Source: Solidesulfovibrio aerotolerans (GTDB taxonomy: Bacteria > Desulfobacterota > Desulfovibrionia > Desulfovibrionales > Desulfovibrionaceae). Taken from it: 61,505 nucleotides of DNA. The stretch is taken from contig NZ_WVUD01000026.1 in assembly GCF_009856865.1 (NCBI RefSeq), positions 1-61,505 on the forward strand. Direction: 5' to 3'. Below the pieces are notes generated by a model. The model saw only the letters and a program-made list of their open reading frames with translations. It was not told the DNA's origin and searched no databases. Positions 13,015-15,132 of this stretch are shown here, one piece after another. The position numbers and the translations under genes were made by a program. Position 1 is the stretch's first letter; the number at the start of each line of letters is the position of its first letter.

Positions 13015-15132
13015 TCAAACGTCGAAGAGCGATTTGCGCGTCAGGGTCTCCACGCGGAGTTCGGCCAGCATGGCGGCAAACTGCTCCGGCGACAGCACGG
13101 TGACACCAAGGGCCTGCGCCTTGGCCAATTTGGAGCCAGGCTCGGCCCCGGCCACCAGATAGTCGAGCTTTTTGGACACCGCACTCACGACTTTGCCGCC
13201 GGCCCCTTCCACCAGGGCTTGGGCTTTGTCCCGGGACATATCCGGCAGGGCACCGGTGAACAGGAACCGCTTGCCGGTAAAGGGCGTTTGAGCCGCCGGG
13301 GCGTCGGGATTGACCGGCCTGGGGACGCTCACCGGCCACAATCCGATGACCTTGAAGCGCTCCAGCACCTGGCGGTTTGCCTCGTTGCCAAAAAATTCCC
13401 GTATGGCACCAGCCACTTCCGGGCCGATGTCGGGCAGGGCCGTCAGTTCTTCGACCGTGGCCGCGCCCAGGGCGTCGAGATCGCTGAAATGCTCGGCCAG
13501 GGTGCGGGCCGTGCGCGTGCCCACCTGCCGGATGCCAAGCGCGGCGATGAGCCGGGGCAGGGTGGCGGCATCCTTGGCCGCTGCCACGGCGGCCACGAGA
13601 TTGGCGGCGGATTTCTCGGCCATGCGCTCCAGCGGCAGCACATCGGCCTCGGTCAGGCTGAAAAGGTCGGCCGGGGTCTTGACCAACCCCTGGTCAATGA
13701 GCGCCTGCACCCATTTGGCCCCCAGACCTTCGATGTCCAGGCCCGCCTTGGATACAAAATAGCTGATGCCCCGGCGCAGCATGGCCGGGCAGGCCAGATT
13801 GACGCAGCGCCAGGCCGCCTCGCCCTCGCCGCGCACGGCGGCAGAGCCGCATGACGGGCAGACGTGGGGAAAATCAAACGGCTGGGCATCGGCCGGGCGC
13901 TTGTCTTCAATCACGCGCACCACTTCCGGGATGACGTCCCCGGCCCGGCGCACCACCACGGTGTCGCCCAGGCGCAAATCCTTGGCCCGGATTTCGTCCT
14001 CGTTGTGCAGCGTAGCCCGGGCGACGGTCACCCCGGCCAGACTGACCGGAGCCAGGATGGCCACCGGGGTCAGTACGCCCGTGCGCCCCACCTGGATGTC
14101 GATGCGCTCCAGGGTGGTTTCCCCTTCGTGGGCCGGAAATTTAAGCGCAATGGCAAAGCGCGGAGCGCGGTCGGTAAACCCCAGGGCAACTTGAATGTCG
14201 AGATTATTGATCTTAGCAACTACGCCATCAATATCAAATTTAAGACCATAACGCTTACGCAACATATGTTCATAATACTTGTACACATCTTCAAAAGAAA
14301 CAAGTTCTGAATGCTTGTCAACGTTAAATCCATATTTTCCTAAATATTCCATCATAGACTGATAAGTACTCCAAGCGTTACCTACGAGTCCCCACCGAAC
14401 ATCACCCACACCATACGGGAAAAAACTTAAATTACGGCTTGATGTAATATTTGGATCAAGTTGCCTGACAGATCCAGCCGCAGCATTCCTCGGATTCGCA
14501 AATATTTTACCACCACTTTCACGTTGTTTCGCATTTAACTTATAAAAGCCCTCAAAAGTTAAAACAGCTTCTCCACGAACTTCCAACATATCTGGAATTG
14601 TTACATTGTGACGTCTTGCATATACTCGCAAGTCTAATGGAACATGACGAATTTTTCGTACATTTTCTGTCACATCCTCACCCACGATTTTGTCGCCGCG
14701 CGTCAGCGCCCCGGCGTAGACCCCGTTTTCGTAGATGATTTCTAGGGCCAGCCCGTCAAACTTGGGATCCACCCAAAACATCGGAGTCTCGAAGGCTATT
14801 CCCTCGCCTTTAAGCTTGTTGGCCGCCCGAATCAGAAAATCGTTCCACTCTGCCTCGCTCATGGCGTTGTCCAGGCTATACATGCGCAGCCGATGCGGAC
14901 GCGAGGCGAAACCTGCTTGCACGGCCCCGCCCACCCGGCGGGTAGGCGAATTGGGGTCGTCAAGCTCCGGGTGGGCCGCTTCCAGGGCTTTGAGTTCCCG
15001 ATACAGGGCGTCGTAGGTCGCATCCGTTATTTCAGGATCGTCCAGGACGTAGTAGCGATGGTCGTAGTAGTGGATCTGGTCGCGCAGTGCGCGTAACCGC
15101 TCGGCTGGCGTCGTCTCGTTGGCCTGGCCCAT
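13015..15132 (-). CDS. ligA: NAD+-dependent DNA ligase LigA with an AT-rich internal segment
   Basis: 705 residues, normal for LigA, which seals nicks during replication and repair. It has an N-terminal Ia domain, then nucleotidyltransferase with the AMP-accepting lysine in DPKFDGLA (Lys124). OB fold, zinc finger (CPSCG ... CVNLACP), helix-hairpin-helix repeats ([24 protein letters not shown]) and a C-terminal BRCT domain ([17 protein letters not shown]) follow. Bases about 14193-14690 (residues about 148-313) are strikingly AT-rich compared with the rest, yet the frame and family motifs stay intact. RBS GGGGGAGGGGGAG precedes ATG 15132. Confidence 0.95.
14193..14690 (-). other. Low-GC patch inside ligA, likely recombinant
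   Basis: Hand counts give 19 G+C of 60 at 14221-14280 and 20 of 60 at 14281-14340, against 35 of 60 at 14101-14160. Codon choice switches to A/T-ending codons at both borders within a few codons. The coding frame is uninterrupted, so the patch looks like an intragenic replacement by foreign DNA rather than an insertion. Confidence 0.8.

Follow-up and report, generated by a model that had tools for sequence, protein, structure and literature searches.

Mosaic alleles of essential genes are described, in outline, for penA (encoding PBP2) of Neisseria, in which they derive from commensal relatives. For penA, the donors are closely related species with a similar base composition, and it is a drug that drives the replacement. 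As far as this outline goes, the ligA gene analysed here resembles penA in being an essential gene with a mosaic allele, but its donor was not found in our searches of genome, phage, plasmid and IMG/VR collections.

Within-gene replacement in core genes is, as outlined in PMC3212841, a well described process. That source reports internal recombination breakpoints in 678 out of 5,282 gene sets of E. coli and Shigella, and cites Chan et al. for 286 out of 1,462 sets with internal breakpoints across prokaryotes. In such within-gene lateral transfer, the breakpoints fall inside conserved orthologues, as they likewise do in ligA. The E. coli/Shigella survey, as presented there, concerns exchange within that clade only, whereas the G+C content of the ligA block is 23-29 points away from that of its flanks, its source is absent from the sampled genomes, and the same part of this essential gene is affected in two species. 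Three features are uncommon in this case: the wide difference in composition, the essential role of a gene present in one copy, and an overlapping second replacement in a sister species. NAD-dependent ligases of phages and mobile elements are possible donors, yet phage records reach at most 46% over the block, and a copy in another genome of the same family (G087) reaches 41% over its length. The case did not turn up in literature searches on mosaic ligA and on Desulfovibrio phage ligases, which is weak evidence of absence.

The window, i.e., the whole stretch of 61,505 nucleotides of DNA of the sulfate-reducing bacterium Solidesulfovibrio aerotolerans that was analysed, is contig 80 of a draft genome of 4.61 Mb in 161 contigs (G000). 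In this genome, the middle of the ligA adenylation domain has very probably been swapped in frame by homologous recombination, and a related species (G007) carries a longer overlapping swap that is most likely separate.

The ligA gene and its product

The gene and the positions that bear on the function of its product are as follows.

13015..15132, minus strand: ligA, NAD-dependent DNA ligase, 705 aa
14761..14763, minus strand: codon of the catalytic lysine (residue 124) in KFDG, not part of the replaced tract
14689..14691, minus strand: Lys148 (TRGDG to TRGDK), at the left edge of the tract

The ligA product scores above the cut-offs of both LigA family models, NF005932 (798 bits) and TIGR00575 (760 bits), as a normal LigA does, and its Pfam domains are complete (Ia, adenylation, OB, zinc finger, HhH and BRCT), with PF01653 covering residues 73-334. 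The catalytic lysine was placed by alignment to E. coli LigA (2owo), counting from K115 on the printed alignment. A reading made from the sequence alone had put the block downstream of the KXDG lysine and the frame as kept across it; residue 124 does precede the block, and the reading frame is open throughout the low-G+C tract. Out of 135 positions that are invariant in 41 other LigA proteins, 132 are kept by the chimera, and the departures are G148K, T160K and A231S. Position 148 is Gly in all 41 other aligned proteins, that of G007 included.

The genome search found a single LigA match in G000, and the ATP-dependent ligase family PF01068 was found in none of the four genomes searched (G000, G007, G013 and G008), with 6 out of 14 control genomes being positive. 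Because no other ligase was found in G000, the chimeric ligase would still have to work, and it is most likely a working enzyme.

Extent and edges of the low-G+C tract

The tract and its edge zones are located as follows.

14188..14682, minus strand: replaced low-G+C tract, residues 151-315 by best fit (two-segment fit, GC3 profile), inside the nucleotidyltransferase (adenylation) domain
14662..14694, minus strand: left edge zone, residues 147-157, within the conserved TRGDx..GEDVTEN motif (at most 3 log units from the best fit; codon table)
14134..14217, minus strand: right edge zone, residues 306-333 (two-segment fit), between DIDGVVAK and the ALKFPA motif, near the right edge of the G007 tract

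The G+C content of the 498 bases at 14193-14690 is 0.382, compared with 0.669 at 13015-14192, 0.613 at 14691-15132 and 0.620 for the whole window. Thus the low-G+C block that the sequence-only reading had noticed inside the catalytic domain is borne out by the G+C content and by the sliding profile, and its limits, put there at about residues 148-313, are residues 151-315 by the best fit. Its estimate of about one third G+C was a little low for a value of 38.2%, and the flanks, put there at nearly 60%, have 61-67%.

The limits of the tract were set by a two-segment fit on third codon positions. GC3 is 26% in the best-fit tract (codons 151-315) and 79% outside. The likelihood ratio of the fit is 156.7; in 60 permutations, for which a coarser grid was used, it averaged 10.6 and never exceeded 19.6. 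In windows of 20 codons, GC3 is 15-40% where the window starts at codons 151-291; the edge window at 301 has 45%, and the rest of the gene 55-95%. Left edges at 147-157 and right edges at 306-333 lie within 3 log units of the best fit. The locus, frame and length of ligA are retained without duplication.

Occurrence of patches in other genes

To place the tract among the other genes, 1.11 Mb of the 4.61-Mb genome was scanned for internal patches in non-overlapping open frames of 150 codons or more. Out of 818 such frames, 29 satisfied the internal-patch rule, and ligA exceeded all the others (0.69, compared with 0.50 for the runner-up). The scan of G007 covered 0.37 Mb, about one tenth of that genome; 8 of 292 frames satisfied the rule there, and ligA again came first (0.55; next 0.45). 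A genome-wide habit of low-G+C patches was therefore ruled out in the sampled parts. Seven other patches, five from G000 and two from G007, were compared with Pfam. Three of these frames match no family, three patches lie outside the matched domain (of a MucR-type regulator, a semialdehyde dehydrogenase and YdjM), and one lies inside a recognised gene, which encodes a CHAT-domain protein with TPR repeats (L166). G000, G007 and G013 each have one main copy of the class II reductase, polA and dnaB genes, and no patch was found in these, the lowest GC3 over 30 codons being 0.53. Because ligA leads the scan and these three genes are unpatched, the distribution in this partial sample appears unlike that expected from a general low-G+C donor genome, and would fit a donor, for instance a phage, that has little gene content in common with the host.

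Elsewhere in the window, a low-G+C gene for a protein of 224 aa (22437-23111, plus strand) lies between conserved genes in a region that aligns poorly with G007, G013 and G008; its product matches no Pfam family and hits the 2TM effector models of PADLOC only weakly (best E 0.0088). A serine dehydratase gene (PF03313, PF03315) is located at 11421-12926 on the plus strand, and the leader of its product, MDRRNFLK..., resembles by eye a putative twin-arginine export signal.

Comparison with related species

The genus was sampled with 14 genomes, G000 and 13 others. When searched against them, the DNA of the block matches only G000 itself and G007, at 72% identity. An assembly or binning chimera, which a draft in 161 contigs might lead one to suspect, is hardly credible: the related block of G007 is at the same place inside a contig of 370 kb, and the frame and motifs of the G000 gene are intact.

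In G007, GC3 of ligA is 45-60% over about the first 40 codons and 15-45% from there up to residue 300 or so; it is 55% at the edge and rises to 60-95% in the remainder. The low-G+C tract of this species is thus longer than that of G000 and covers most of the N-terminal half; it is an addition to what the sequence-only reading had described. No low-G+C tract is present in the other 12 ligA copies of the genus, none of which has a 60-codon window with GC3 below 0.65. Among these, the ligA of G013, the sister species of G007, is GC-rich throughout. Sharing of the block by sister species with no donor signal had been named as a sign against a foreign origin; a low-G+C block is indeed shared by G007, but with a donor signal, since the GC-rich sister G013 lacks it.

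The proteins of G007 and G013 are 94% identical in residues 320-705 but 55% identical in the block, indicating replacement, not mutation in place. At the DNA level, the surroundings of ligA are 86-94% identical between the two species in the longer alignments, compared with 68% over the first half of the tract; the remainder does not align. The blocks of G000 and G007 are 66% identical to each other, compared with 49-58% to the other genus members examined. The two blocks differ from each other by 0.19, 0.14 and 0.51 per site at codon positions 1, 2 and 3, indicating that both have been under purifying selection.

Near the right edge, G000 and G007 have 7 identical departures in common within residues 301-310 and none within residues 311-320. 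To the left of the tract, sharing between the two genes extends into a further region:

14743..14919, minus strand: left fringe, residues 72-130, GC-rich with scattered bases common only to the low-G+C tract of G007

In residues 71-147, nine bases are identical in G000 and G007 and missing from the 12 other genus members, compared with 1.6 expected if they had arisen independently. Some of this sharing reflects common descent, because residues 521-620 also exceed expectation (5 shared bases seen, 0.5 expected).

The genes around ligA follow the same order in G000, G007, G013 and G008, except for the G000-only segment at 15106-17454. This segment, directly upstream of ligA, holds two open reading frames, one encoding a family 2 glycosyltransferase (PF00535) and the other having no Pfam match; its counterpart in the other three genomes is about 0.7 kb without DNA similarity.

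Phylogenetic conflict within ligA

Separate trees of the gene parts, which the sequence-only reading had proposed, disagree and favour replacement. In the tree of residues 320-705, G007 and G013 are sisters (support 100) and G000 comes next. In the tree of residues 150-312, G000 and G007 join each other and are set off from the 12 other members by a stem of 0.68-0.83 changes per site. The AU test on the block rejects the grouping of G007 with G013 (p-AU 0.0002). The same test does not reject a clade that unites these two species with G000 (p-AU 0.162), so any placing of the donor lineage is tentative. Moreover, the branch tying the two blocks to the 12 other members is weakly supported (80/23) and the residue make-up of G007 is odd, so that the long stem may partly reflect composition.

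Distances point the same way. Over 60 GC-rich pairs of the genus, the ratio of block to C-part protein distance averages 0.94 (0.55-1.24); the outliers are G007-G013 (10.68), G000-G013 (6.0) and G000-G007 (2.83). The ratio of N-part to C-part distance for G000 is 0.76-1.21 against the 12 GC-rich members and 2.17 against G007. For G007 it is 1.49-5.84 against the same 12 members, so the N part of G007 is abnormal and belongs to its tract.

Residues common to G000 and G007 and missing from all 12 others number 22 in residues 150-312, 2 in 41-147 and 0 in 320-705. The blocks of G000 and G007 keep 3 and 2 out of 14 genus-specific residues, compared with 15 out of 20 in the C part of either. When the comparison is limited to near outgroups, the block keeps 3 out of 13 in each and the C part 17 and 18 out of 22, respectively. 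With so few genus-specific residues kept, the block looks, as judged from its residues, like the product of a fast lineage that branched close to the base of the genus or outside it. In the N part, G000 keeps 16 and G007 13 out of 20 genus-specific residues; the retention by the low-G+C N part of G007 suggests a donor not wholly foreign to the genus.

The conflict also bears on whether a native block was altered in place by biased or accelerated mutation, through local hypermutation, relaxed constraint or selection for low G+C. The unrejected clade of G000, G007 and G013 would agree with such a history, as would the finding that 10 of the 12 other genus ligases (G007 aside) match the block better than any outside genome, at 51-55%. 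Such mutation is nevertheless very improbable, and it was discarded on two grounds: the contrast between the nearly identical C parts of G007 and G013 and their diverged blocks, and the transition/transversion counts relative to G013, which are 98/134 for G007 and 99/135 for G000 and are not deaminase-like. The sharp edges of the tract and the retained invariant residues also stand against it. The proposal of the sequence-only reading that the block was replaced from a low-G+C donor is supported by the tree conflict and by the G007/G013 contrast, with the donor not found in the searches described below.

Search for the donor and mobile ligases

No donor was found among 348 genomes of the class (272 with matches) or among 395 genomes drawn from the phylum (366 with matches). 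The best match outside the genus is 51% for the G000 block (G213) and, among the 395 phylum genomes, 56% for the G007 tract (G114). GTDB contigs yielded no donor either, the six loci found being the record of G013 itself and five at 38-40%. Nor did the phage, plasmid and IMG/VR collections, in which the best matches are 46%, 49% and 43%, respectively. Out of 99 phage records matching the block, none is closer to it than the host ligases, which stand at 49-55% for the 12 other genus members and 66% for G007. A survey of the class for other mosaic ligA genes comprised 82 rows, including some loci twice and 12 viral contigs; two rows of fewer than 400 codons were dropped, and among the 80 examined L001 and L002 are the only outliers.

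A second full-length LigA-like protein of 817 aa, 41% identical to the LigA of G000, is encoded in G087 (L252, 7180-9633), about 1 kb from a gene for a phage CI-type repressor (PF07022, PF00717). Because this copy adjoins such a gene, ligases seem to travel on mobile DNA in the family.

Other candidates were followed and set aside. A weak match in G013 (contig C154) was judged to be noise. The low-G+C elements C14 and C44 of G007 were considered as ligase carriers, but G007 has only one LigA match and no second LigA was found in it. The low-G+C region of C14 (L229, 9064-13722) encodes a protein of 1,552 aa with a C-terminal family A DNA polymerase (PF00476), the rest having no Pfam match. C44 (L230; 12.6 kb, 35% G+C) encodes a DnaB_C-type helicase (PF03796) and, by eye, several open reading frames with pilin-like N-terminal leaders and one resolvase-like open reading frame.

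Number of events and mechanism

From the tract and its distribution, we infer homologous recombination from a related donor, with two events favoured over one. The incoming DNA would have been a related but diverged low-G+C ligA, which may have paired with the resident gene through short conserved motifs, TRGDG..GEDVTEN on the left and a stretch of 15 residues on the right. Recombination in place and in frame would then have left a full-length chimeric ligase with all domains. In G007, an overlapping and longer replacement of most of the N-terminal half, from the same diverse low-G+C donor pool, would most likely have been a separate event.

A single replacement of the N-terminal half in the ancestor of G000, G007 and G013 would demand that G013 regained a GC-rich copy from a relative and that the left part of the G000 tract was patchily overwritten, leaving residues 151-315. 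The nearly identical right edges of the two tracts, the nine G007-like bases in residues 71-147 of G000 and the unrejected clade of the three species would accord with such a history. A shared right edge can arise without a common event, however, because recombination ends where sequence is conserved. The two blocks stand at 2.83 times their C-part distance, compared with 0.55-1.24 for the 60 other pairs, and the block of G013 joins the G008 group, as under vertical descent, although with modest support (70 in one tree, 86/75 in another). In addition, GC3 is still 27% in both blocks despite time for recovery. Under a simple two-state model of GC recovery, residence since the G000/G007 split would imply that GC3 began at about -0.03 (bootstrap range, -0.24 to 0.11), whereas counting from the G007/G013 split only gives 0.07 for G007, which is possible. 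At third positions, the S/W states show no correlation between the two blocks (11 SS observed, 11.9 expected), and together with the little GC recovery this indicates separate late arrivals. One ancestral replacement is therefore rather unlikely. Two replacements fit best, since the blocks differ too much, with too little GC recovery, for one old insertion.

As for the source, a phage-borne ligase pool is plausible but unproven. A wider proposal, which we regard as doubtful, places a diverse pool of ligA genes of host origin on unsampled low-G+C phages or mobile elements of the genus. These elements would overwrite the adenylation half of the only host ligase time and again, owing either to double-strand breaks or phage recombinases that favour the site or to an advantage that a changed ligase surface gives the cell or the phage in their conflict.

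Implications

Essential replication genes serve as vertical markers, and here the catalytic core of a single-copy ligase has proved exchangeable in frame despite a wide composition gap. Because a sister species carries a longer, different swap at the same place, partial replacement of this essential gene seems to have happened more than once, apparently within one small group of species. The chimeric ligA thus offers a natural case for asking which regions of the ligase can be mixed, and points to a hidden pool of low-G+C ligases.
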